64,000 bases of DNA from an uncultured Desulfobacterium sp. (lineage in GTDB: Bacteria > Desulfobacterota > DSM-4660 > Desulfatiglandales > Desulfatiglandaceae): the NCBI GenBank assembly GCA_900258555.1, contig LT984857.1:447795-511794 (forward strand), written 5' to 3'. The notes beneath the pieces were generated by a model that did not search any database, had not been told where the DNA came from, and was given only the letters and a program-made list of their open reading frames with translations. Position numbers and translations under genes: made by a program. Of this stretch, positions 6,195-22,743 are shown piece by piece (positions within the stretch are counted from its first letter, which is position 1; every line of letters begins with the position of its first letter).

Positions 6195-9100
6195 TTATTT
6201 GCCCTTAAGCGGCAGATAAAACACCGGTACTACAAACAGGGTAAACAGGGTGCCCACAAGCATGCCGGAGGCGATCATAAGTCCAATGGCAAAGCGGCTG
6301 TTGGCACCGGCTCCAAAGGCAAGGAGAAGCGGAGTCACTCCAACCACTGTGGCTGCCGTTGTCATCAGGATAGGTCTCAGGCGCAAAGAGGCAGCCTCCA
6401 AGACCGCTTCTCGCCTGGATAGGCCTTGTGCAGTCAAGTGGTTGGCAAAGTCGACAATGAGAATGCCATGCTTGCTGATAAGCCCGATCAAGGTGAGCAG
6501 TCCGACCTGGGTGTAGATATTAAACGTTGTAAGACCCAGGGAGATCGGCACCACTGCCCCGAATATGGATAAGGGTACTGTCACAAGCACCACAAAGGGG
6601 TCTCGAAAACTGTTAAACTGGGCTGCCAGCACCAGAAAGATCAGGAGCAGCGACAGGGTGAACAAACGGGGAAAGCTCTTGCTTTCCTGTTTAAAACGGC
6701 GCGACTCACCTTCGTAACCTACACGAAACCCGACCGGTGCAACCTTTTTTACCGCCTGTTCAAGAAATTCAAGCCCTGTGCCCATTGTATTGGGCGGCAT
6801 GAGCATTCCCTTGATGTTGGTACAGTTTAGCTGCTGATACTGGGTCAGGCTGTTAGGTTCCACACTTTCCGATAGTTTAATGACAGTTGACAGGGGGACA
6901 AGTTCGCCTTTTGCCGTACGGATGTAATATTTACTAAGATTCTCCTTTGTGAGTCTGAAGCCTGGTTCAGCCCGTGGTATCACCTTGTAACTGCGGCCTT
7001 CCATGCTGAATCTGTTGATATCGGCCTCTCCCAGCATAATGGCTAAGGTATCTCCGATAGATTGCATGGAGATGCCCAGCCTGGAGGCCTTGTCCCTGTC
7101 TATGGATACAGTGGTTTCAGGCCTGGTAAAATTCAGGTCCTTTGTTAAAAAGATAAAAAGGCCGGACTCCCTGGCCAGCTGCATTACTTCCTCAGCAATC
7201 CGGTCAATTTCCTTATAATCAGCAGTGGAGGCCAGAACAAAATTTACCGGCAGTCCTGAATCCGAGCCGGGCAGGGAAGCCTCACCGAAACTGAATAATT
7301 CAAGGCCGCTGATTTTTATCAAACCGGCCTGAAGCTCATCTTGGATCTCCTTCTGGGTGCGCTTACGTTCCTTCCAGGGTTTTAGCACCAGCCCGCCGAT
7401 AATCATCTTGGGCGAACTTTCCTGCCAGGAATGACTGACCTCAGGTATGCCCTTCCACAGGGTCACTACTTCATTGAGAAATTTATTGATGTATTGGAGG
7501 CTTGCATACTGTGGTGCATTGGCCATCACGTAGATATGGCCTGAATCCTCTTCAGGTGCCAGTTCATTCCGGGTCAGACTAAAGAGCACAGGGAGGCTTA
7601 AGATGATTACTGCACTGAACAAAAGCACTGCCCCGCGGTTATTAAGGCTGTGGACCAGAAGCCGCCGATAAGAACGCTTGAGGGCTTGAAAGCGCGCATC
7701 CAACCAGTCGGTAAATCTGCCCTGATGTTTCTGGTCCCTGAGCACATAGGCGCACATCATGGGGCTTAGGGTAAGCGCTATGATGCCGGAGATAAACACT
7801 GCACCTGCAAGGGTCAGGGCGAACTCAGTGAAAAGGGCCCCGGTCAGGCCGCCCAAAAAGCCTATGGGTGCATACACTGCTGCCAGGGTAAGCGTCATGG
7901 CGATCACAGGAAACGCCACTTGCCTTGCGCCCCGCAAGGCTGCCTCCCAGGGGCTTGCCCCGGACTCTATATGACGATGAACGTTTTCAACCACCACAAT
8001 GGCATCATCCACCACCAGGCCTATAGCAATAACCATGGCAAGGAGCGTGAGGATGTTTAGGGAAAAACCCATGGCGTAAATAAGAAACATCACCCCGATA
8101 AGCGATAAGGGAATAACCACCAGGGGGATTAAGACCACCCGGATAGAGCCCAGAAAAAGGTAGATGACCAGCACCACAATAGCAGCCGCCTCCAGCAGGG
8201 TCTTAACCACCTTGATCAAAGCCTCATCAATATACATAGATGCATCAAAGTCCATAACAACTTCCATGTCGGCAGGCATCTGGTCCCTGAGCCTTGGAAG
8301 AAAGTCATGGACCTGTTTGGCAACATCAAGGGGGTTTGCCCCAGGGGCTGTGAAGATAGACATGAAAACCGTGTCCCTGCCGCTTGAAAAGGCGGACGAC
8401 TCGGTTTTTTCCCTTGAAAGATCCAGCCTTGCCACATCTCCCAGACAGACCCGCCTGTCGCCTTCCTGCCGTACTACAATTTTGGCAAAGGCTTCCGGGT
8501 CCTCCATGTCGGTTTGCGCGTCAACGCTTGCGCGGACAAGGTTTCCCTCAGTGCTTCCTGCTGCTGAGATATAGTTTTCCCGCTGAATGGCATTTCGTAC
8601 ATCTTCTGCCGTAACCCCGCAGGCGGCCATGAGTTCGGGATTCATCCATACCCTCATGGCAAAATATTTGTCGCCCAGGATGTCCGCGGAACCCACGCCC
8701 TCCATGCTTGTGAGCTCTGGCTGCACGGATCGCAGGAGATAGTCGGTAATCTGTTCTATGGAGAGTTTCTTGCTGTAACAGGCAAGGTACATCAAGGCAT
8801 CACTTCCTGTGGCAGTAATGACCACTGGGTCCTCTATTTGTCGGGGCAGTACGTGGCGGGCCTCGTTGATTTTGGCGATCACCTCTGTCAGCACGTCACT
8901 GGAATTTTCTCCAAGGCGTACATGGACATTTATGGTGGAGGTCCCGGGAACGCTGTTGGAGGTGATGTATTCCACACCCCGCGCACTTGCGATTCGTTGC
9001 TGTAAGGGCGTGGTGACAAAGCCCTGAACGGTCCTGGCGCTTGCGCCAGGGTAATCGGTGGTAACGTAAATTACGCTTTTCTCTATATCAGGAAAATGCC

Positions 9101-9203
9101 GTACTGAGAGCTTGCTTGCCGCCTGCGCACCCAGAAGCAATAGCACGCTGCTCACAACAATGGCCAGGACCGGACGCTTGATGAAAATGTCGGTAAAATT
9201 CAT
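6195..9203 (-). CDS. RND efflux pump permease (HAE1/AcrB-like family)
   Basis: Inner-membrane proton-driven exporter of 1002 residues, shorter than the ~1040 of AcrB but complete at both ends. It has the family's double repeat: a first membrane helix at 9-28, a large periplasmic porter domain, six helices including the proton-relay pair D399-D400 in IGLVVDDAIVVVENV, then a second half with the SKHGILIVDFAN segment carrying the partner lysine. It ends after a final helix (LFTLFVVPVFYLPL). Substrates cannot be read from the sequence; drugs, dyes, lipids or fatty acids are all possible. The adaptor gene lies 9 bases upstream. No TolC-type outer-membrane gene is adjacent, so the channel must be borrowed. 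Confidence 0.94.
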   Translation of the reverse strand: MNFTDIFIKRPVLAIVVSSVLLLLGAQAASKLSVRHFPDIEKSVIYVTTDYPGASARTVQGFVTTPLQQRIASARGVEYITSNSVPGTSTINVHVRLGENSSDVLTEVIAKINEARHVLPRQIEDPVVITATGSDALMYLACYSKKLSIEQITDYLLRSVQPELTSMEGVGSADILGDKYFAMRVWMNPELMAACGVTAEDVRNAIQRENYISAAGSTEGNLVRASVDAQTDMEDPEAFAKIVVRQEGDRRVCLGDVARLDLSREKTESSAFSSGRDTVFMSIFTAPGANPLDVAKQVHDFLPRLRDQMPADMEVVMDFDASMYIDEALIKVVKTLLEAAAIVVLVIYLFLGSIRVVLIPLVVIPLSLIGVMFLIYAMGFSLNILTLLAMVIAIGLVVDDAIVVVENVHRHIESGASPWEAALRGARQVAFPVIAMTLTLAAVYAPIGFLGGLTGALFTEFALTLAGAVFISGIIALTLSPMMCAYVLRDQKHQGRFTDWLDARFQALKRSYRRLLVHSLNNRGAVLLFSAVIILSLPVLFSLTRNELAPEEDSGHIYVMANAPQYASLQYINKFLNEVVTLWKGIPEVSHSWQESSPKMIIGGLVLKPWKERKRTQKEIQDELQAGLIKISGLELFSFGEASLPGSDSGLPVNFVLASTADYKEIDRIAEEVMQLARESGLFIFLTKDLNFTRPETTVSIDRDKASRLGISMQSIGDTLAIMLGEADINRFSMEGRSYKVIPRAEPGFRLTKENLSKYYIRTAKGELVPLSTVIKLSESVEPNSLTQYQQLNCTNIKGMLMPPNTMGTGLEFLEQAVKKVAPVGFRVGYEGESRRFKQESKSFPRLFTLSLLLIFLVLAAQFNSFRDPFVVLVTVPLSIFGAVVPISLGLTTFNIYTQVGLLTLIGLISKHGILIVDFANHLTAQGLSRREAVLEAASLRLRPILMTTAATVVGVTPLLLAFGAGANSRFAIGLMIASGMLVGTLFTLFVVPVFYLPLKGK

Positions 9204-9212
9204 GGTGCGTCC

Positions 9213-10400
9213 CTAAAACTTGACCTTCTCGTCTATCACGATTCTTGCGTCGCGATACATTTTGTTCTGCCCTGCAGTGACGACCTTAGTCTCAGGGCCA
9301 AGGCCTGAGAGTATGCTGATCCGTTCATTTCGGGTCTCACCCACTGTAACGACCGCAGGGTTAGCGATGAGCTCTCCTTGTTCATTCTGCTCGATGACAA
9401 ATACCGTGTTTCCGCTCAAAGAATAGGTCACAGCAGTCTGAGGGACAGTAACCAGGTCATGCAAAACGCCTGTGGCCACACGCAGCTTGGCGAACATGCC
9501 GGGAAGGAGCCCCTCGCCTTCATTGATCTTTGCCCGTACCGTAATGTTTCTAGTGTCCGGGTCGACCTTTGAATCCAGGGCGAACAGTGAGGCGTGGAAG
9601 GACTTTTCAGGATAGGCCGCTACCCTAAGCTCAATATCAAGCCCCGGCTTAAGCAATGCCGTTGTCTGGGAGGGCAAGGTAAAGTCTATTTCAAGCTCGC
9701 TCAGATCCTGCAATGTGGTGATAACAGTGCCCGGGGAGATATAGTCTCCTACCGCCACCTTGCTAATACCTGTCACACCACTAAAGGGCGCGCGGATATG
9801 CTTGTTGGCCAGGCGCGCTTCAGCCTCTGCCAATTGCGCCTGGGCCCGCTCCCGATCAGCCTTGGTACGGTCGTACTGGGTTTGAGAGATGGATTTTTGT
9901 TGGACCAGTTTTTTGTCTTTTTCAAATAATAAGCCTGCCAACTCCAGGGTAGCCTTCCTGCTTTGTACCTCGGCCTGCTCCACCTTATCGTTCAATACCA
10001 CCATCAACTGCCCTTGTTCTACCCGTCCGCCTGACTCAAAATTGATCCGGATGATTTCTCCGTTTTCCTCTGATGTCAATTCGACCCCGCGAACTGCCTT
10101 GACTGTCCCTACGGCATCCAGGTAGCTCTCCCAACTTTCCTGCCTGGAGACAGAGGCGGCTACAGTTACAGGAGGGGGCTTAAGGTCTATGCCGGCAAGG
10201 GCGCTAAAGCGGATATACAGATAACCGGCAATGGAGCCAAAAATCACGAGTAATAAAAGTAAAACAGTAAGATAGGCGCGCAATAGATGACCTATAATCT
10301 TATTCCAAATAGTAGGAATGGGACTTATTGAGAAGTTTCCACAGCTAAAATTAACCTTATGCCTTTTATGCAGAATAGTCAACCCCGCCGCATAATCCAC
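9213..10400 (-). CDS. RND efflux periplasmic adaptor (membrane fusion protein)
   Basis: The adaptor bridges the inner-membrane RND pump to an outer-membrane channel. A single membrane anchor (LTVLLLLLVIFGSIAGYLYI, about 44-63) is followed by the lipoyl half-motifs, a short helical hairpin (about residues 140-195, rich in Q, K, E and A), the beta-barrel and the membrane-proximal domain ending with VVTAGQNKMYRDARIVI. The start is uncertain. The in-frame ATG at 10400 gives a 35-residue leader that looks non-coding and overlaps a sensor-kinase relic, so the native start may be a TTG near 10283 (LLRAYLTVLL) or may have been lost with upstream DNA. It is followed 9 bases later by the pump gene. Confidence 0.9.
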   Translation of the reverse strand: MDYAAGLTILHKRHKVNFSCGNFSISPIPTIWNKIIGHLLRAYLTVLLLLLVIFGSIAGYLYIRFSALAGIDLKPPPVTVAASVSRQESWESYLDAVGTVKAVRGVELTSEENGEIIRINFESGGRVEQGQLMVVLNDKVEQAEVQSRKATLELAGLLFEKDKKLVQQKSISQTQYDRTKADRERAQAQLAEAEARLANKHIRAPFSGVTGISKVAVGDYISPGTVITTLQDLSELEIDFTLPSQTTALLKPGLDIELRVAAYPEKSFHASLFALDSKVDPDTRNITVRAKINEGEGLLPGMFAKLRVATGVLHDLVTVPQTAVTYSLSGNTVFVIEQNEQGELIANPAVVTVGETRNERISILSGLGPETKVVTAGQNKMYRDARIVIDEKVKF

Positions 10401-11913: not shown

Positions 11914-12639
11914 CTACTCCGTCAGATAAAATGTGATCGTTGTCACAACACCGACATCCTTTTCTATTTTTACCGTGTCTCCATAATCCTCTCCTGCATC
12001 ACGTATATAAAAGCTCCCCTGCCTTGCACTTCGGATACCACCGACTTTGACCCCGGCATTTTCTGCAAACTCGGTCGCGGCAATGCGGGCGTTTTTTGTG
12101 GCCTCACGGAGCATTTCAGGCTTAATTTCATTGAGTTTGGTGAAACGATAGGTCGGCGCCATGTTCTTTATGTCTATCCCCTGCTCAATTAATTTGTTCA
12201 CATTAGCGCGCACCTTGCCCACCAGCTCAACCTTATTAGTCTCTACACTTATGTTGCCGACCAACTTATGGGTCTGATCAACAAGCATTTGTTTATCATC
12301 GCGGAATTCCAGATATTCATAGTCCAGGACCCCCAGTCCTATTTCATTATCTGTGAATCCGCTTTCCCTCAGCAGGCCGATAATTGTTTGTTGGTGTTGT
12401 TCGGCCTCCTTATACAGTCTTGGAATGTCCTCCCGGCTCGTCCCTGACACAGCGAAGGAGATCTTCCAATTGGCGCGGTCGGCAGATACACGCCTTTCAG
12501 CCAGACCCTTTGCCTCTGCCGTGTTAAGGGCAACCTTGGCGTTATACATGGTCTGTCCGATAAAATAGCCCGCCAGGGCCAAACCTGCAGCGACAAACAA
12601 CCCGAAAAAGAAAAAACCTCCCTGATTATCCCTGCTCAT
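11914..12639 (-). CDS. SIMPL-domain (DUF541) periplasmic protein
   Basis: A 241-residue protein with one N-terminal membrane segment (GGFFFFGLFVAAGLALAGYFIGQ) followed by the SIMPL/DUF541 domain: an N-terminal strand with RRVSADRANWKISFAVSG, a helix with an EHQQTIIGLL core, and a C-terminal half with AATKNARIAATEFAENAGVKVGGI. Family members are predicted periplasmic proteins, often with envelope-stress links, but no biochemical role is settled. The ATG at 12639 is preferred over 12651 because GGAGG lies just upstream of it and inside the longer version. It follows the M29 aminopeptidase gene by ~50 bases on the same strand and is probably the last gene of that operon. Confidence 0.85.
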   Translation of the reverse strand: MSRDNQGGFFFFGLFVAAGLALAGYFIGQTMYNAKVALNTAEAKGLAERRVSADRANWKISFAVSGTSREDIPRLYKEAEQHQQTIIGLLRESGFTDNEIGLGVLDYEYLEFRDDKQMLVDQTHKLVGNISVETNKVELVGKVRANVNKLIEQGIDIKNMAPTYRFTKLNEIKPEMLREATKNARIAATEFAENAGVKVGGIRSARQGSFYIRDAGEDYGDTVKIEKDVGVVTTITFYLTE

Positions 12640-12690
12640 ATAATCCTCCATAGCTTATCCCTGTTTCTGTGATTAGCCTATGTTGCCTTG

Positions 12691-13809
12691 TTATTTCAAA
12701 TTTTCCGGATTAAGGGGGATTAAATCATCAACCACAAAAATGCCGTCCTTGCGGATCAATTCTCCGTCGAAATAGATCTCACCGCCGCCGAATTCCGGCG
12801 TCTGCATGAGCACCATGTCCCAGTGAATGTCGGATTTATTGCCGTTATCCGCCTCCTGGTAGGCGCTGCCGGGCGTGAAATGGATGGAACCGGTGATCTT
12901 TTCATCAAACAATATATCCTTCATCGCCTTTGTGCAGTGGGGATTGAGCCCAATGGCGAATTCCCCCACATAACGGGCACCTTCGTCCGTATCCAGTACT
13001 TCGTTAAGTTTGGCAGTATTTGAGCCTGTCGCCTCGATTATCTTTCCGTCCTTAAACACCAAGCGGATGTCATTATGGGTCGTACCGTGGTAAATTGTTG
13101 GGGCATTGTAATGGATAACGCCGTTTACAGAGAGCTTAACAGGTGCGGTAAAGACCTCCCCGTCCGGGATGTTGAGTTTTCCATCACATCCTATGACCGG
13201 CATTCCCTTAATGGAAAAGGACAGATCCGTATCGCGGGGGCCTTTGATATGGACTTGATCGGTATTTTCCATCCGGGCGATCAGCGGCTTCATGCCATTT
13301 GACATCTTCTTAAAATCCATGGTGCAGACATTGAAATAGAAATCTTCAAATGCCTCAGTGGACATCTCCGCCATCTGGGCCATGGAGGAGCCGGGCCAGC
13401 GAAGTACAACCCAACGGGTGTTGGGAATGCGGACACCGACATGCACACGGTTCCAGACCGTTTTTTCATAGATCTTCTGAAGCTCTCCGGAGACGTCGGA
13501 CAATTCGCTCACATTGGGATTGCCCCGTGCCCCGATGTAACACTGGACATTTTCCATAACCAGTTTTTCCGCGTCAGCAACCAATTCCCACCCTTCATAG
13601 GTGCCGTTTTTCATGAGGGATCTGCGGATCTGATGGGAATCCAACTTGACAATGGGAATTGCGCCTGCCGCTCTTGCCAGACGAATGCATTCGCAGGTAA
13701 ATTCATGAGGCACATCTATGGCCTCAATCAGAATCCTTTCCCCCTCCCTGACCTCGCATGAGTAGTTTATCAAGACGTCGGCCAGTCGTGTAATACGAGG
13801 ATCGAGCAT
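12691..13809 (-). CDS. M29-family metallo-aminopeptidase
   Basis: A 372-residue cytosolic aminopeptidase of the AmpS/PepS (M29) family, which removes N-terminal residues using two metal ions. The ligand regions are visible: NIPDGEVFTAP near residue 220, a second glutamate in GEFAIGLNP near 287, GSIHFTPGSAY near 314, and SDIHWDMVL near 330, with a late DGEL loop. The length fits a slightly short family member. A GAGGAGATATT site precedes the ATG. It sits 9 bases after the GH26 lipoprotein gene in the surface-glycan operon; whether that is functional or only shared transcription is unknown. Confidence 0.9.
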   Translation of the reverse strand: MLDPRITRLADVLINYSCEVREGERILIEAIDVPHEFTCECIRLARAAGAIPIVKLDSHQIRRSLMKNGTYEGWELVADAEKLVMENVQCYIGARGNPNVSELSDVSGELQKIYEKTVWNRVHVGVRIPNTRWVVLRWPGSSMAQMAEMSTEAFEDFYFNVCTMDFKKMSNGMKPLIARMENTDQVHIKGPRDTDLSFSIKGMPVIGCDGKLNIPDGEVFTAPVKLSVNGVIHYNAPTIYHGTTHNDIRLVFKDGKIIEATGSNTAKLNEVLDTDEGARYVGEFAIGLNPHCTKAMKDILFDEKITGSIHFTPGSAYQEADNGNKSDIHWDMVLMQTPEFGGGEIYFDGELIRKDGIFVVDDLIPLNPENLK

Positions 13810-13818
13810 AATATCTCC

Positions 13819-14943
13819 TCAACGGCCTTTAAGTACCGGCCGGTCCAGCCAAAATGGGTTGGAGATCTCCTTGCGGTATGCAGCAAGGGACTGTGGAGAG
13901 GAGTTTACCCGAAGGTTACTGTAGCTTAAGTCGCTGTTCTGCCAGCGCTCGTGCCAGAAGACAGCGGCCTTTAAACGGGGGAACTCCTTGGACATGCGGC
14001 TTAGGGCTTCTGTAATAAACGCCGCCTTGCTCCCGCTTTTGGGAAACTCTCCCACTCCCCACTCTGCAAGGATAAAGGGTTTATCCGGGTCGAGCGCACA
14101 GATCTCCTTGTAGAACTTCGGCAGCACGATCTCAAACTCGGTCCACTTCTCTGTGTTCGGGTATTGCTTGCCGTAAGCGCTGAGCCCCAGCCAGTCAACA
14201 TACTCGGCCCCGGGCCAGTAATTGGCCATACGGTTCCAGTGCTCATCAGGCTCTGATGTGTTGTTTGGGTGAAACACCCAGGCGATATTGTCCGCCCCTT
14301 GCGCCCGCACACGGTCCACTACATGTCTGTAAGCCTTTTTGAACAGTTCAGGGCCCTGAAAGAGCGGGGGATCTGTCCCGGGAACAGGCCGTCCGCCTCC
14401 GTAGAAAAAACCGGACCATGGAAACCATGTCCCGTTCATCTCAAGGCCCCACGATACCAGCATGGGTGCTCCGAACTGCCTTGCCTCCTGCGCCCACATG
14501 TCAATGTAATTATCCCACTTGCCTTCAACAATATTTACCAGGCTGAAGCGGTCCGGCTTCATGTCCCCGGCAGGAGGCCCGTCCCAAGGGTTCCAGTATA
14601 TCAGCGCCACCGCACCATATGCATAGACCACCTGCAAGGCCTCTTTGGGGAACGACTGTTTGGCCCAGTAACTGGAAAATCCTATGACTGCCTGTCTCTT
14701 TCCCACCAGTGCATCAAACGACTCAATGGCCTCCAGTGTAACATCATCTTCTGTGGGGCCAAAGTCTATATATGCCCCTGTATACGCCTGGGCCTCTGGC
14801 AAGGCCAGCGCCATTTTCCCCGGCTGACTGACCGTGGGGGCAATTTTCTGTTCATCAGGCTCAGAGGAACATGCATATGCGCCTAGCACAATAAATGCCC
14901 CCAGAAAGGCCATGGATATATAAATCGGGGAAAACATCTTCAT
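13819..14943 (-). CDS. GH26-like glycoside hydrolase, probable lipoprotein
   Basis: A 374-residue exported protein. The N-terminus has a hydrophobic stretch ending LGAYAC-SS, so Cys25 is a plausible lipidation site although the -2 Tyr is atypical. The rest reads as a GH26 (beta-mannanase-type) TIM barrel. The acid/base region is SWGLEMNGTWFPW with Glu168, and the nucleophile region is FILAEWGVGEF with Glu294. These are the two signatures of the family. Its start overlaps the stop of the big fusion gene by 4 bases (ATGA), so translation is coupled. Synthase-dependent polysaccharide systems normally carry such a periplasmic glycanase; the sugar here may be mannan-like or something else, which the sequence alone does not settle. 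Confidence 0.85.
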   Translation of the reverse strand: MKMFSPIYISMAFLGAFIVLGAYACSSEPDEQKIAPTVSQPGKMALALPEAQAYTGAYIDFGPTEDDVTLEAIESFDALVGKRQAVIGFSSYWAKQSFPKEALQVVYAYGAVALIYWNPWDGPPAGDMKPDRFSLVNIVEGKWDNYIDMWAQEARQFGAPMLVSWGLEMNGTWFPWSGFFYGGGRPVPGTDPPLFQGPELFKKAYRHVVDRVRAQGADNIAWVFHPNNTSEPDEHWNRMANYWPGAEYVDWLGLSAYGKQYPNTEKWTEFEIVLPKFYKEICALDPDKPFILAEWGVGEFPKSGSKAAFITEALSRMSKEFPRLKAAVFWHERWQNSDLSYSNLRVNSSPQSLAAYRKEISNPFWLDRPVLKGR

Positions 14944-17900
14944 CCCTTCGTTACTCCTTTGTCTACATCCTGCGATATATGTTCAACAGAATAAAACGGC
15001 ACAGTGCCTCTTCTCTCCTGCCTTCCCCAGCCGACCCACACACCCCGCAGGGCGCGGAACAGCGAACGCCACACAGCATAGCTCAAAAGCGGCCTGTAGA
15101 TCAGTCTCATCGGAATTATAGCCCATGCAGTGCGTAGTCTCTCTCCTTCCATCATGCATGCTACCAAAGCCAGCACCAAATCAAGAAGGATAAACATCAG
15201 GGCGTATTCTGCAATAGCCCCTCCAGCGCCCGTTACAAGGGAGGCAATCAAAAGCGCATCAACAACCGGGACCAAGGCCACCAGAAAAACGTGACAGAAC
15301 CATACAGTAGGAAGGCTGAAAAATGCCAGGGCACTGTAAGCGGGGTCAAAGAGCATATCAATATGCTTAAACAGGCACTGAAGTGTTCCAAAGGCCCACC
15401 TGGTCCTCTGTCTTATAAGGGCCTTGACCGTCTCCGGGGCCTCTGTCAGCCCTATTGCCCCATCAGAGTAACGGATCTTGTAACCATGTCTGTGCATGTT
15501 CAGTGTCATGTCCGTATCCTCGGCCAGTGTCTCTGTCGGTATACCCCCTGACTTTAAGACAGCGCTGCGCCTTAATGCGCTCACCGCACCCGGTACGACC
15601 GTGATGCAGTTTAGGACATCGTAGGCGCGGCGGTCAAGATTGAACCCGCATGTATATTCAAGTGACTGAAACCGGCCTATCCATGTGCCAAGGTTTCCCA
15701 CCCTGGCATGCCCTGATACGGCGCCCACATCATTGTCCGCAAAAAATGCGACAAGCCTTCCTATGGTATCCCGGTTGAAGTGGGTGTCGGCATCGAGTGT
15801 GATGATATATTCATTTTCTGTCGCCTCAAGCCCTGCGTTCAGGGCACTGGCCTTGCCCTTGTTCTCCTGGCGCACCAGACGAACGCGGGGATCCGCAGCC
15901 GCGATATCCTCTACAATCCTGGCAGTGTTGTCGGTTGATCCGTCATCCACTACAACCACCTCAAGTTTGCCCCGATATGCGGTATCCAGCACTGAAAGCA
16001 ATGTGGCCCGGATAAGCTTGGACTCGTTAAAGGCCGCAATTATGACTGACACAGGCTCAGTGATTGAATATGTATCTGTAATGGTTTCCTTCCATAGTTT
16101 GTGCCGCACTGCAAAGACAAGGACAATCAGGGTACGAAAAAAGACTATCGCAGTGCTTGCTATCATAAAGGCCCAGGCAAGTTCTTCCAGGATATGCAGG
16201 ATCTTAAGGCCTGTCTGTGCCACAAGGCGGGACTGGTAAGGGTCGTCTTTTGGTATGGGAGGCATGAGGGAGTCCACTGGTACACTGATAAGAGTGTTCA
16301 AGGGAACGATCTCATCGCCGCGCATACGCAGGTAGTCAATGACTGCAGGCAGGGCCTCCACTGTCTGTGAGCGGTCGCCGCCCGCATCATGCAGCAGCAC
16401 GATATTGCCTTCACGTCTGCTATCCTTGACCAGGTCAAGGATAGCCTTTGTTCCTGGTTCTTTCCAGTCTTCAGCATCAATACTTGCGCTGACAGGCATA
16501 TAACCCAGGCCCTGGGCGTCAACCAGGGTCATGAACTCCTCGATTGACTGCGGCAAGCGATCCGCGTTATAGGGCGGCCGAAACAGTACCGTGGATCTGC
16601 CGGTGATTCCCTCAATCAGTCTTTGGGTTGCATTGAACTCAAGCTGAAGCCTTGCCTGAGAGATCCTGCCCAGGTCCGGGTGGCTGTAGGTGTGATTGCC
16701 TATCTCGTGACCTTCGGCTGAGATGCGCCGCACCAGATCCGGGTGGGATTCAGCGTTTGACCCGGTTATAAAAAAGCCCGCCTTGACACCCTTTTGCCGT
16801 AGGATATCCAGGACCTTCGGGGTCCACTCGGGATTGGGGCCGTCATCAAATGTTATAGCGACCTGATCTCCTCGGCTTTCACCCTGGTGGTAAAGTAGCG
16901 GATATTTCGGATATCGAACATAAATGGAACTCCAAAGGCCGGTTTCATCCTGACTTATATTACGAAGCCCTTCAGCAGTTTCATTTACTGCGGTAAGGAA
17001 GTCACCCTTACCGATGTTGCTGATGGCCTTTGTTGCCTTCATCTCTTCAAAGGAACCGGGCTCACAGAAATTGACGCAGTTAAAGGTGTCCCACACCTGC
17101 GGGTCCTCTGTTCCCATACGCCAAAGTGCGACACCTCTGACACCTTTTTTTTCGGCCTCGAATTTTTGATTGCGAAAGCTGATGGCATCCAGGAACCAGA
17201 CTGAATGATTTAATCCATCAACCACATAGTCAAAATGGGGGCCGTCATAAGGCGCCATGTTCTCTATTCTGGTCTCCCCTGCGGAATTGGCCCGAGCCAT
17301 CGAGTCCGGGAAGCTAAGAGTTTGCGGCGTTTCTCCTGCCTGCCAGTCATAGCCGTATGAACCTATACCGATCACCAGTTGGCCGGGGGGAATTTTATCC
17401 GCAAGCACGTCCAGCCATTCTTTGAACCAATTATGTGAGGCCAGAGGGCCCGGCGGGTCTTCCTCTCCTGTCTCGTCGTAGAGCATTGCCACAAATCGGT
17501 CAACCACGGCGGGGAGTTTATCCAGATCAAAGATCTTGATGTCGTTACCCACCGGTATACAGAGCCACAGCTCAAGGTCCTTATGCATCAGATTTTCATG
17601 CATCCTGCTGAAGAACAATGTAAGCTCCTGCTGGTAGGTCGGGTCAACCTGTTCAAAGTCAACCACCAACCCCTTTGCGCCTATCTTTGTAAGCCTGTCG
17701 CAGAGCTTGGCAAAAAAGCGGTCCTGGATCTCTTCGTCCGAAAGGATCAGGGCCTCCACCGCCTCCGGTTGCCACTGATCTATCTTGAGATTGCTCATAA
17801 GCGGCAGCAGAGCTATACCGTGGGCCTCGGCAATCCGGCAGACCTCTTCGTCGGGTTCGCTATCCAGCATGGGCGGGGTCCCTGCCAGGGTGAACCACTC

Positions 17901-18365
17901 GGGGCATAGATGGGTCAATTTATCCGCATGGTTGATAAGAGAGAGATAGCTGTTTTTGTCCCAGTTGACATAATAGCCCAGCCTCACGGGACGTTGATCA
18001 CCGGGGTTGACAAATGCCCCTTTAACCGCACTAGGGGAAGCAGGCTTATTAAGCAGCCAGGCCGGTGGAGGTTCAGGGCTGTGGACAGCAGTCTCAGACC
18101 TGGTTATGGCCTTCAGTCTGCTGGTCATGTTATGGACCTTGTCCAATTGCTGAAGACGGGGCAGAATAAGCAAAGATCGGATAAACAGAATAAGCGCAAT
18201 AAATGAAACAAACACAACAATGAAGGAGGTTAGCCGGAACCTAGGCCAGCGTTTGCCCTTCATGTCCAGAAATATGAAGTTTTTTTTATCCACGTGGTTA
18301 ATTCCAAAGCTTAAGCCTGGGCCATCTGCCTGCACTAAGATAGGAGGGTAGACAGGCTGAGTCAA
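14940..18365 (-). CDS. Three-domain fusion: GH18-like / NodB polysaccharide deacetylase / GT2 synthase
   Basis: A 1141-residue inner-membrane protein joining three enzymes. One membrane helix (about 46-68) anchors a periplasmic GH18-like domain (about 127-435) whose active-site strand reads GLVVDFEQV, with Glu238 as the candidate acid. Next is a NodB deacetylase (about 500-690) with TFDDGP (D507, D508), the H558-x3-H562 metal pair, RPPYN and LLHD. Another helix (about 728-752) leads to a family 2 glycosyltransferase (about 770-1000) with VVDDGS, DAD (858-860), AEDTD and QRTRW, then several helices. This is the logic of poly-N-acetylglucosamine systems (PgaB plus PgaC) in one chain. The start is a TTG with AAGGA upstream; an ATG at residue 35 is an alternative. 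Confidence 0.92.
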   Translation of the reverse strand: MTQPVYPPILVQADGPGLSFGINHVDKKNFIFLDMKGKRWPRFRLTSFIVVFVSFIALILFIRSLLILPRLQQLDKVHNMTSRLKAITRSETAVHSPEPPPAWLLNKPASPSAVKGAFVNPGDQRPVRLGYYVNWDKNSYLSLINHADKLTHLCPEWFTLAGTPPMLDSEPDEEVCRIAEAHGIALLPLMSNLKIDQWQPEAVEALILSDEEIQDRFFAKLCDRLTKIGAKGLVVDFEQVDPTYQQELTLFFSRMHENLMHKDLELWLCIPVGNDIKIFDLDKLPAVVDRFVAMLYDETGEEDPPGPLASHNWFKEWLDVLADKIPPGQLVIGIGSYGYDWQAGETPQTLSFPDSMARANSAGETRIENMAPYDGPHFDYVVDGLNHSVWFLDAISFRNQKFEAEKKGVRGVALWRMGTEDPQVWDTFNCVNFCEPGSFEEMKATKAISNIGKGDFLTAVNETAEGLRNISQDETGLWSSIYVRYPKYPLLYHQGESRGDQVAITFDDGPNPEWTPKVLDILRQKGVKAGFFITGSNAESHPDLVRRISAEGHEIGNHTYSHPDLGRISQARLQLEFNATQRLIEGITGRSTVLFRPPYNADRLPQSIEEFMTLVDAQGLGYMPVSASIDAEDWKEPGTKAILDLVKDSRREGNIVLLHDAGGDRSQTVEALPAVIDYLRMRGDEIVPLNTLISVPVDSLMPPIPKDDPYQSRLVAQTGLKILHILEELAWAFMIASTAIVFFRTLIVLVFAVRHKLWKETITDTYSITEPVSVIIAAFNESKLIRATLLSVLDTAYRGKLEVVVVDDGSTDNTARIVEDIAAADPRVRLVRQENKGKASALNAGLEATENEYIITLDADTHFNRDTIGRLVAFFADNDVGAVSGHARVGNLGTWIGRFQSLEYTCGFNLDRRAYDVLNCITVVPGAVSALRRSAVLKSGGIPTETLAEDTDMTLNMHRHGYKIRYSDGAIGLTEAPETVKALIRQRTRWAFGTLQCLFKHIDMLFDPAYSALAFFSLPTVWFCHVFLVALVPVVDALLIASLVTGAGGAIAEYALMFILLDLVLALVACMMEGERLRTAWAIIPMRLIYRPLLSYAVWRSLFRALRGVWVGWGRQERRGTVPFYSVEHISQDVDKGVTKG

Positions 18366-18525
18366 GATCCTTCAAGCCCTTTACTGGCTTATCCTCAAGG
18401 TACTGTGGAGAAATCTCATGGTCTTTGAATTCATATGGACAAAGACGGCGCACTTGCCTATACTACCGCCACCTTATTGCAGACCGCTGTTTTTTCTATC
18501 CCCCTTTAAACAGGACCAAAAGCCC

Positions 18526-19743
18526 ATGTCAGATCCGGAAATCCTGCAACTTAAGATTGATCCCTCCATGAAGTCCCTGAGACCGATTAGACGAAGACGC
18601 CGGCTGTACGCGGCGCTGGCATTGTGCCTTGCTGCCCTTCTGCTGCTGTTTTTTAAAAGACAGACTATCTTCGCAGTACCGGTTGAGGTGGTGACCGCCA
18701 CCCGGCTCTACCCTTCCCAAACCCTTTCCCTTCTTTATGCAAGCGGTTACGTGGTTCCACAAAGAAAGGCCGCAGTGGCCTCCAAGGTGACAGGAAGGCT
18801 GGTTGAACTCCTGGTGGAAGAAGGGACCAGGGTAAAAAAGGGGGATGTGGTGGCAAGGCTCGAAGATGACGACGTGCTTGCACAAAAGGCCCAGGCGGAG
18901 GCCAATGTCAATAACGCCGCCTTTCAACTTGATTCGGCAAGGGCCGCACGAAAGGAAGCGGACATCCTCTTTGAAAGGGACAGGAGGCTCGTGGAGAAAG
19001 GGGCGGTTTCCATGATACAATTTAGGCTCTCAGAGGCCAATCTTAACAGGGCAGCGGCAGCGGTCAAGGCCGCAGAGGCAGGGCTTGAGGCAAGCAGGGC
19101 AGCCTTAAAAAACGCACTTGTCGCCCTGGAATACACCAGAATACTTGCCCCCTTTGATGCGGTAGTGCTCACAAAGGATGCGGATGTCGGTGATATCGTC
19201 ACCCCCATTGGTTCGGCCGTGAATGCAAAGGCGGCGGTGGTTACCATTGCAGACATGGATAGCCTGGAGGTCGAGGCGGATGTCTCCGAGACCAACCTGG
19301 CCAGGGTCAAAATCGGGCAACCCTGTGAGATCATGGTGGATGCCATCCCGGACGTCCGCTTCAGGGCCGCTGTGCACATGATCGTGCCTACGGCGGACCG
19401 TTCAAAGGCATCTGTAATGATCAAGGTGCGCTTTCTGGATAAAGATCCCCGTATACTCCCGCAGATGAGTGCAAAGGTAAATTTTCTGACCAGAGAGCTC
19501 GGTCCGCAGGATCAGACGCCTGTAACCGTGGTCTCGAAGACCGCAATCGTCAATAAAAAAGACCGATCCGTTGTGTATTTTATCCGTGGCGAGAGGGTTT
19601 CGGAAGCTGTTGTGGAGACCGGCAAGGCATGGGATGACCTTGTCGAGATCAGAAAGGGCCTTGGGTCCGGCGACAAGGTAGCAGTCGCAAAGGATGGAAG
19701 ACTTAAAGACCGGACGGTTATTAAAGTTATTGAAAAGGAATAA
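18526..19743 (+). CDS. Periplasmic adaptor of a MacAB-like ABC exporter
   Basis: A 405-residue membrane fusion protein. A basic N-terminus (RPIRRRRR) precedes one membrane helix (LYAALALCLAALLLLFF), then the lipoyl half (AAVASKVTGRLVELLVEEG), a long alanine-rich helical hairpin with a QAEANVNNAAFQLDSARAA pattern, the returning lipoyl half (ILAPFDAVVLTKDADVGD) and the barrel domain. I prefer the ATG at 18526; an in-frame ATG at 18418 would add 36 residues unlike any adaptor. The stop codon overlaps the start of the ATPase gene by one base. It works with the next three genes to move a substrate across the envelope. Confidence 0.9.
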   Translation: MSDPEILQLKIDPSMKSLRPIRRRRRLYAALALCLAALLLLFFKRQTIFAVPVEVVTATRLYPSQTLSLLYASGYVVPQRKAAVASKVTGRLVELLVEEGTRVKKGDVVARLEDDDVLAQKAQAEANVNNAAFQLDSARAARKEADILFERDRRLVEKGAVSMIQFRLSEANLNRAAAAVKAAEAGLEASRAALKNALVALEYTRILAPFDAVVLTKDADVGDIVTPIGSAVNAKAAVVTIADMDSLEVEADVSETNLARVKIGQPCEIMVDAIPDVRFRAAVHMIVPTADRSKASVMIKVRFLDKDPRILPQMSAKVNFLTRELGPQDQTPVTVVSKTAIVNKKDRSVVYFIRGERVSEAVVETGKAWDDLVEIRKGLGSGDKVAVAKDGRLKDRTVIKVIEKE

Positions 19744-20462
19744 TGTCAGGCGAATCCACCATTGTTAAGGTAAGGGACCTGAAAAAATCCTACCAGAGGG
19801 GCGGGCTTCCGGTCCCGGTTTTACACGGGATCAGCCTGGATATCAAAGAAGGAGATTTTCTTGTCCTGATGGGCCCGTCCGGTTCCGGAAAGACCACACT
19901 CCTTAATATAATTGCCGGGATAGACAGAGCGGACAGCGGCACCGTGACCGTGGGGGGCATTGAGATCGGGGACTTGACCGAGGCGGAACTTGCTTTCTGG
20001 CGCGCAAACCATGTGGGTTTTGTCTTTCAGTTCTATAACCTGATTCAGGTGCTGACCGCCATTGAAAATGTGGAACTGCCCCTTCACCTGACATCTCTGC
20101 CGGGATCTGTGCAGAGGCAGCATGCACTATTGGCCCTAAACCTGGTCAATCTGGGTCACCGAATCCACCATTACCCCTCCCAATTATCAGGAGGAGAGCA
20201 GCAACGGGTGGCCATTGCAAGGGCCATTGTCACAGACCCGACCATCCTGGTGGCTGATGAGCCCACAGGCGACCTGGACAGGACATCTGCAGAAGAGATC
20301 CTGGACATCATGCAGGGGCTCACTCAAGAGATGGGAAAGACCATCATAATGGTAACCCATGATCCCAGGGCGGCCAGGAGGGCGAAGATTATAAAGCACC
20401 TGGACAAGGGGTTTCTGAACAATGCTGATCTACAAGATCCTGATAAGGAATGCCTTCCGTAA
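19743..20462 (+). CDS. ABC transporter ATP-binding protein (MacB/LolD-like)
   Basis: A 239-residue ATPase. Walker A is GPSGSGKTT (44-52), followed by a Q-loop in GFVFQFYNL, the signature [14 protein letters not shown], Walker [13 protein letters not shown] and the switch histidine in VTHD. The LDRTSAEEI segment after Walker B is typical of the MacB/LolD branch that powers mechanotransmission exporters rather than importers. Start and stop overlap its neighbours (1 base upstream, 41 bases into the first permease gene), showing a tightly coupled operon. Confidence 0.95.
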
Positions 20463-21579
20463 CAGGTTGCGCGCCGCACTCACTGTCATAGGTATAGGGG
20501 TCGCCATACTGGCCTTCTGTCTTTTGCGGACCATTGTAGGCGCATGGTATGCAGGCGTGGAGGCCTCCTCGGCCACAAGACTTATCACCAGAAACGCCAT
20601 ATCCATAATATTTCCCCTCCCCCTCTCATATATGGAAAGAATTCGGCAGATAGAAGGGGTTGAAATGGTGTCTTACGGAAACTGGTTCGGGGGCATATAT
20701 ATTGATGAAAAAAATTTTTTCCCCAACTTCTGTGTAGATCCTGAGACCTATCTTGGACTCTACCCTGAGTTTATGTTGAAGGATTCGGAGAAAACGGCCT
20801 TTTTTAGGGACAGAAAATCCTGTATCGTAGGCAGGAAGCTTGCCACCCGCTTCGGTTGGAAGGTAAACGATATTATCACACTAAAAGGCACCATATTTCC
20901 CGGCAATTGGGACTTTGTCGTGCGCGGCATATACGTGGGTCGAGATCAGACCATTGATGAGACCCAGTTCTTTTTCCATTGGGACTATTTAAATGAAGAG
21001 TTAAAAAAAACCGGCCACGAATGGGCGGATAACCCGAATTTTTACATCGTAGGCGTAAAGAGGCCTGATTATGCAGCGACCGTTTCCGACACCATTGACC
21101 GGATGTTTAAGAATTCATATGCAGAGACCTTAACAGAGACAGAGAAGGCCTTTCAACTGGGTTTTGTCGCCATGACCAGCGCCATTGTCTCTGTAATCCA
21201 GGTCGTATCCTTCATGGTGATTGTAATAATAATGGCGGTGGCTGCAAACACCATGGCCATGACCACCAGGGAGAGGATAGGAGAGTATGCAACCCTTAAG
21301 AGCCTTGGCTTTGGGCCCAAGCACATAGCCACACTGGTCTTCGGGGAATCCGCAGTCATATCCTTATCCGGTTATATACTGGGGATAGCAGCCACATACC
21401 CGGCAGCGGATAAGTTCAGAACGGAGCTGGGGCACATCTTCCCGGTCTTCAACGTGGAGATTAAAACGGTTTTTTTCGCCCTGCTGGCAGCCATTGCTGT
21501 CGCCATTGTGGCAGGCATCGTGCCGACCGTCAGGGCTGCCGGAATAAGTATCGCCGATGGATTAAGGAGAATGGGCTAA
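20422..21579 (+). CDS. MacB/FtsX-type ABC permease, first copy
   Basis: A 385-residue permease with the MacB architecture: one helix near the N-terminus (ALTVIGIGVAILAFCLL), a large periplasmic domain (about residues 40-250), then three helices (VVSFMVIVIIMAVAANTMAM, then two near the C-terminus). The cytoplasmic loop after helix 2 holds the family motif RERIGEYATLKSLGFGPKHI, the coupling site for the ATPase. The gene begins inside the end of the ATPase gene. It pairs with the following permease, so the exporter is probably a heterodimer. Confidence 0.92.
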   Translation: MLIYKILIRNAFRNRLRAALTVIGIGVAILAFCLLRTIVGAWYAGVEASSATRLITRNAISIIFPLPLSYMERIRQIEGVEMVSYGNWFGGIYIDEKNFFPNFCVDPETYLGLYPEFMLKDSEKTAFFRDRKSCIVGRKLATRFGWKVNDIITLKGTIFPGNWDFVVRGIYVGRDQTIDETQFFFHWDYLNEELKKTGHEWADNPNFYIVGVKRPDYAATVSDTIDRMFKNSYAETLTETEKAFQLGFVAMTSAIVSVIQVVSFMVIVIIMAVAANTMAMTTRERIGEYATLKSLGFGPKHIATLVFGESAVISLSGYILGIAATYPAADKFRTELGHIFPVFNVEIKTVFFALLAAIAVAIVAGIVPTVRAAGISIADGLRRMG

Positions 21580-22743
21580 TTGCATATCCCCATATTTTAC
21601 AGCATCAAAAATCTGTGGACCAGGAGGCTCACCACAATTCTTACAGTTGCCGGCATGGCCCTGGTGGTCTTTGTCTTCGCGGCCATCCTGATGCTGGCCG
21701 AGGGGCTGGAAAAGACACTGGTGGATACGGGTTCATATGATAATGTTGTTGTGATCAGAAAAGGCTCCGGCTCAGAGGTCCAAAGCGGCATCGAAAGGGA
21801 AAAGGCCGCTATCCTTCAGACCCTCCCGGAGATCGCCACTGCAGGTCAGGGGCAACCCCTTTCAGCAAGGGAGATGCTGGTACTGATCAGCCTGCCGAAG
21901 AAGGCTACAAAGAAGCTATCCAATGTCGCAGTACGGGGCATTGAACAGACATCCCTGACCCTCAGGCCCCAGGTACGGATCACTGAGGGCCGGGCGCCTC
22001 AATTCGGCGCCTTGGAGATTATGGTGGGAAAGAGTATTGTCAAACATTTTTCCGGCATGGCGATCGGGCAGAGTCTGACATTCGGGATGAGGAGATGGCG
22101 GATTGTAGGCATATTTGATGCCGGAAACACCGGCTTCAACTCGGAGGTCTGGGGGGATGTTGACCAGATGATGCCGGCCTTCAGAAGACCTGTATATTCA
22201 TCTGTCATCTTCAAACTAAGGGATGCAACTACTTTCTCTCAGGTAAAATCCCTCATTGACCGTGACCCGCGCTTAAGCCTGGATGCCAGGAGGGAGACCC
22301 AATATTATAAAGATCAATCCGAGATGATGGCAAAATTTCTTCGCATCCTTGGAACATCACTTACCATTATCTTCTCTATCGGCGCAACCGTAGGAGCGAT
22401 GATCACCATGTATTCCGCGGTGGCCAACAGGACAAGAGAGATAGGGGTCTTAAGGGCCCTTGGATTTCCAAGGAAGAGCATCCTTTCAGCCTTTCTGATC
22501 GAGGCCATGCTGTTCGGGGTTTTAGGAGGCGCATTCGGACTCTTCTTTGCATCCTTCATGCAGTTGATCACAGTGTCAACTCTCAACTTCCAGAGTTTTG
22601 CAGAGCTGTCCTTTTCCTTTACCCTCTCATCAAAGATAGCCTCTCAGGCAATGCTGTTTTCCATATTCATGGGGTTTGCAGGGGGCCTTCTGCCCGCCAT
22701 ACGGGCCTCGCAAATGAAGATCGTGGACAGCCTCAGGGCCTAG
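21580..22743 (+). CDS. MacB/FtsX-type ABC permease, second copy
   Basis: A 387-residue partner permease starting with TTG directly after the stop of the first permease, with AAGGAG 8-10 bases upstream. It has the same plan: helix near residues 16-38, a periplasmic domain, and three C-terminal helices with the coupling motif RTREIGVLRALGFPRKSIL between them. Two different permeases, one ATPase and one adaptor form a complete MacAB-like inner-membrane unit. Such systems export lipoproteins, peptides or lipids, or use force to act on the envelope; the substrate is unknown here. Confidence 0.92.
   Translation: MHIPIFYSIKNLWTRRLTTILTVAGMALVVFVFAAILMLAEGLEKTLVDTGSYDNVVVIRKGSGSEVQSGIEREKAAILQTLPEIATAGQGQPLSAREMLVLISLPKKATKKLSNVAVRGIEQTSLTLRPQVRITEGRAPQFGALEIMVGKSIVKHFSGMAIGQSLTFGMRRWRIVGIFDAGNTGFNSEVWGDVDQMMPAFRRPVYSSVIFKLRDATTFSQVKSLIDRDPRLSLDARRETQYYKDQSEMMAKFLRILGTSLTIIFSIGATVGAMITMYSAVANRTREIGVLRALGFPRKSILSAFLIEAMLFGVLGGAFGLFFASFMQLITVSTLNFQSFAELSFSFTLSSKIASQAMLFSIFMGFAGGLLPAIRASQMKIVDSLRA

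Follow-up and report, generated by a model that had tools for sequence, protein, structure and literature searches.

The 64,000-nucleotide stretch of DNA analysed here (the window) carries two overlapping genes on its reverse strand, which are read, with moderate confidence, as a system of two genes for an amino-sugar exopolysaccharide, with a GH26 enzyme as the conserved cutter and a GH18 domain as an ancestral hydrolase that has decayed in most relatives. The larger gene (14940–18365) encodes a GH18-CE4-GT2 fusion protein, and the smaller one (13819–14943) encodes the GH26 enzyme, a probable lipoprotein identified as a conserved partner by its family profile and synteny. Judging from family resemblance, the product would be an N-acetyl-amino-sugar exopolysaccharide, probably poly-GlcNAc.

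The open reading frame of the fusion comprises 1141 codons from a TTG. Since homologues align only from about residue 25–28, a GTG at 18293 (codon 25) is the likelier start and may yield a protein of about 1117 residues; thus, the 1141-residue chain described in the first-pass annotation holds as the length of the open reading frame and may not hold as that of the protein. The hydropathy profile revealed an N-terminal transmembrane helix with positive charges ahead of it (residues 49–67, 18165–18221), a transmembrane segment between CE4 and GT2 (about 722–757, 16095–16202), and C-terminal transmembrane segments after GT2 (about 1015–1072, 15150–15323). This layout fits a location of GH18 and CE4 outside and of GT2 inside. 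A structure prediction of the whole chain (2 rows, pLDDT 34) was not used. All three enzyme domains that the same annotation had placed on one membrane protein were recovered by Pfam profiles and motifs.

Residue conservation was assessed in a final alignment of 73 homologue rows, superseding a first one of 22 rows. The clade of the window comprises 59 loci, 57 of which were scored for the GH18 residues, and 55 of which had readable downstream sequence. The CE4/NodB-type polysaccharide deacetylase spans residues 496–693 (16287–16880), with Polysacc_deac_1 matched at residues 496–600 (Pfam, E=2e-36) and the motifs TFDDGP, HTYSH, RPPY, and LLHD intact. The catalytic Asp, the D-H-H metal ligands, and the R and H of motifs 1–5 are present (D507, D508, H558, H562, R596, and H659, invariant in 57), and the catalytic residues are otherwise essentially invariant apart from W634, which is changed to Y or H in a few clade rows. 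The GT2 synthase domain (residues 770–1000, 15366–16058) was matched by Glycos_transf_2 at residues 773–933 (Pfam, E=1e-35) and retains the motifs DDGS, DAD, AED, and QRTRW; across 57–58 rows, DDG, DxD, ED, and QxxRW are invariant save two cases of D807N. Its nearest relatives are PgaC/IcaA and NodC, and its best named model is PgaC_IcaA at 192 bits, well under the equivalog cut-off of 422. Together with the NodB-type CE4, this relationship bears out the earlier comparison with the synthase and deacetylase of PNAG-type systems.

The GH18 domain, SleL/YaaH-like, lies at residues 130–418 (17112–17978), where Glyco_hydro_18 was matched over profile positions 4–315 of 317 with 43 bits against a cut-off of 29.6 (Pfam). 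A single-sequence search matched SleL (4s3j) at E=3e-19, along with other solved GH18 proteins, and a 10-row profile matched 5jh8 at E=3e-45 over profile positions 3–303 of 306. From this near-full-barrel match, the TIM barrel, the absence of which had been named as evidence against the first reading, is established by homology. A scan of viral contigs yielded no further GH18 relatives. An ungapped alignment to the DFE of SleL placed the putative catalytic D236-F237-E238 at 17652–17660, and Y296 (17478–17480) aligned with the tyrosine of MxYD. Substrate-assisted catalysis in GH18 enzymes depends on the Glu of the DxE motif, helped by the Tyr. D236, E238, and Y296 are all intact in the window protein, so its GH18 domain may be hydrolytic.

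These three residues occur together in only 3 of the 57 clade members, namely the window, its congener (L011), and L059. The acid is Glu in 21/57, being replaced by G, Q, N, A, S, C or D in the others, and position 296 is Tyr in 4/57 and His in 49/57. The conservation of acid and Tyr expected of a working enzyme was not found across the clade. The first-pass annotation had listed loss of the acid among homologues as a result that would count against it, and such loss was observed; its tethering of synthesis, deacetylation, and GH18 cutting fails as a general mechanism of the family. Restricted to the genus of the window, the same model, with GH18 actively cutting the polymer during its exit from the membrane and GH26 being second or dispensable, is unlikely. 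It agrees with the intact residues of the window and its congener and with the full GH18 profile coverage; however, the sister lineage, L055, has Gln at the acid position, and the locus persists in most orthologues despite the loss of the acid and/or the Tyr, therefore GH18 cutting would not be needed for the conserved function of the system. The decay argument does not directly cover the window protein, where the three residues persist.

D289, D297, E420, and D421 are invariant in 57/57 clade members, with or without E238, which would be in line with a GH18 domain that is not a pseudoenzyme and is still hydrolytic via another residue (e.g., E420/D421 or D297 and its neighbours). This possibility is very improbable given the dependence of catalysis on the DxE Glu and the Tyr; moreover, E420/D421 align to the ED pair of 5jh8, an ordinary GH18. 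Because of this matching pair, E420/D421 do not mark a site that arose with the loss of the acid, and they were dropped as a candidate catalytic pair.

Outside the GH26-carrying clade, D/E/Y were retained in 9/9 relatives without a nearby GH26 gene, four of which belong to Desulfobacterota and have no GH26 anywhere in their genomes. In the Rhodobacterales relatives, the GH18 acid is lost, and a DUF3131 gene lies directly downstream of the fusion in four of five loci (L073, L157, L159, and L160); at the fifth (L158, 4317–7730), the fusion is split between CE4 and GT2 into a GH18-CE4 ORF and a GT2 ORF, followed by insertion sequences. A sequence search with DUF3131 gave no solved relative, and a glycosidase identity is not claimed for it. 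A split of the same kind in L068 (2008–5338) may represent a frameshift or an assembly error. A quick tree computed from the CE4 and GT2 columns alone, with SH-aLRT support only, requires at least six changes in the state of the acid; its root and the direction of change were not inferred. The constant Glu in the outgroup favours loss of the acid, although parsimony cannot separate loss from regain. An association of GH18 decay with the presence of a partner hydrolase is suggested by one large and one small clade and is confounded by ancestry.

The GH26 gene overlaps the stop of the fusion gene by four bases (ATGA), and its product was matched by the GH26 family profile with 50.5 bits against a cut-off of 20.2 (Pfam). 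Its predicted acid/base E168 (14440–14442) and nucleophile E294 (14062–14064) are kept in 54/54 homologues. The putative lipidated Cys25 (14869–14871), which would follow a hydrophobic signal helix, sits in GAYAC, a weak lipobox, and Cys occupies this column in 49/55. The coupling of fusion and GH26 proposed earlier proved stronger than had been stated. A same-strand GH26 gene lies downstream of the fusion in 54 of the 55 clade loci with readable downstream sequence, with a gap of about 0.4–1.4 kb between the aligned parts in three of the 54; the genome of the lone exception (L066/G305) has a single GH26, an orthologue with 54% identity, on another contig. In the 395 genomes sampled from the phylum Desulfobacterota, the fusion (E<=1e-60) and GH26 (E<=1e-100) were detected in the identical 15 genomes (hypergeometric p about 2e-27, overstated since the genomes are related). 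No third gene family recurred beside the pair among the homologue neighbourhoods.

The best solved relative of the GH26 enzyme is the lichenase endoglucanase H of C. thermocellum (E=3e-28). In 5 of 10 loci (L170, L172, L173, L174, and L176), a more distant GH26 gene (about 30–34% identity) and another GT2 gene lie only a few kb apart, which suggests a wider GH26-synthase association. Both observations would suit a beta-glucan or mixed polymer, in place of poly-GlcNAc, as the product, with GH26 as a matched lichenase- or mannanase-like enzyme. This reading is rather improbable, since the fused NodB-type deacetylase, the catalytic residues of which are complete in every homologue, needs an N-acetyl sugar, and the GT2 is nearest to PgaC/IcaA and NodC, not to CelA. 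In addition, the lichenase has His immediately ahead of the acid, where all members of the partner family have L/I/V/D; for this reason, lichenase specificity should not be transferred to the partner enzyme.

The GH18-CE4-GT2 architecture is not unique to the window; it is of a known kind and patchily spread. The fusion was present in 42/243 genomes of one class and in 9/241, 4/56, 4/46, and 1/17 genomes of others, while within the family of the window, it was confined to the window genome and its congener. Beyond Desulfobacterota, where the evidence comes from plasmid records only, it was found at 32–36% identity on plasmids of sphingomonads, Rhodobacterales, Deinococcus, and Prevotella. This patchy distribution suggests horizontal transfer. 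At two sphingomonad loci (L070 and L072), genes of the VirJ/AcvB type and of the MprF lysyl-phosphatidylglycerol type are found close to the fusion, a neighbourhood that hints at a connection with surface charge. A Kocuria plasmid (L161, 4719–8024) encodes a CE4-GT2 protein without GH18 beside a separate chitinase on the opposite strand. A literature search found no published description of the triple architecture or the two-gene locus.

Neither a PgaA exporter over the cut-off nor the PgaB hydrolase domain (GHL13) was detected in the eight genomes tested, in agreement, as regards an exporter of the canonical type, with the first-pass remark that no outer-membrane exporter is visible. In the window, genes for an HlyD-type adaptor, an ABC ATPase, and two FtsX/MacB-like permease ORFs, resembling a MacAB-like exporter, occupy 18418–22743 on the forward strand, divergent from the fusion; this exporter was not linked to the locus because no such cluster recurs beside the homologues. 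An AcrB-family RND pump and an HlyD-type adaptor are encoded at 6195–10400 (reverse strand). Short gaps separate GH26 from the next genes downstream on its strand, which encode a SIMPL/DUF541 protein and an M29 aminopeptidase (11914–13809) and are not conserved beside the homologues.

In the proposed two-gene system, the GT2 domain of the inner-membrane fusion would polymerise and extrude the chain, and CE4 on the outer face would partly deacetylate it. The GH18 barrel, predicted on the same face as CE4, could touch the emerging chain, and the co-translated GH26 enzyme, a probable lipoprotein, would serve as the conserved cutter. A GH18 enzyme depends for catalysis on the N-acetyl group carried by the sugar that it cuts, a requirement that a retaining GH26 does not share. 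CE4 would remove this group; for this reason, GH26 is proposed to be the conserved cutter, and GH18 the ancestral one. The barrel would descend from a SleL-like hydrolase with an active site that was lost in most GH26-carrying lineages, where it probably binds or guides the polymer, while in the genus of the window, in which the catalytic residues survive, it may still cut. The loss of the built-in site in most relatives suggests that the cutting job passed to the GH26 neighbour. A more far-reaching version is put forward only tentatively: GH18 may have been converted several times to a non-catalytic polymer handler because CE4 removes the N-acetyl group it needs, with cutting moved to GH26 and a parallel swap with the DUF3131 protein in Rhodobacterales.

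Like the window locus, the PgaBC/PgaA system of E. coli combines the action of a PgaC-like GT2, a deacetylase, and a polymer hydrolase. Unlike it, the window locus has the synthase and the deacetylase in one chain and GH26 as the presumed cutter, and neither GHL13 nor a PgaA over the cut-off was detected in the eight tested genomes. The PgaB hydrolase cuts deacetylated PNAG (PMC5933820) and, by analogy, sets a functional precedent in which the cutter is matched to polymer that has already been processed. MatB, a bifunctional CE4-GT2 protein required for PNAG in Streptomyces (PMC5972031), also carries its CE4 outside the cell and its GT2 inside, with a membrane helix connecting the two, and homologues on Streptomyces plasmids align to residues 493–1122 of the fusion. 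However, no GH18 barrel is present in MatB, and no known domain in its partner MatA, whereas the window locus has both GH18 and a GH26 gene. Bundalovic-Torma et al. 2020 (PMC7112194) described glycosyltransferases joined to PgaB/IcaB-like deacetylases in the absence of detectable pgaA and pgaD; the parts of that paper dealing with these fusions mention neither a GH18 barrel nor a GH26 partner. Glycan-binding GH18 barrels without chitinase activity are known as chi-lectins (PMC3662789). In contrast to these and to SleL/YaaH, which with 5jh8 are the closest solved structures, the barrel of the fusion sits in a polymer synthase, and the acid/Tyr loss occurs mostly in the GH26-partnered clade. The GH26 partner shares both conserved catalytic Glu with Lic26A (endoglucanase H) and differs from it by the missing His before the acid Glu and by being a probable lipoprotein tied to a synthase.

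These results define a compact, transferable two-gene locus, putatively for exopolysaccharide, in sulfate reducers and their relatives. Its GH18 sites range from complete to lost, a natural series in which a same-chain cutter and a glycan-binding guide can be tested against each other in polymer synthases, and the fusion-GH26 locus offers a way to ask what role GH26 may play in polymer export.
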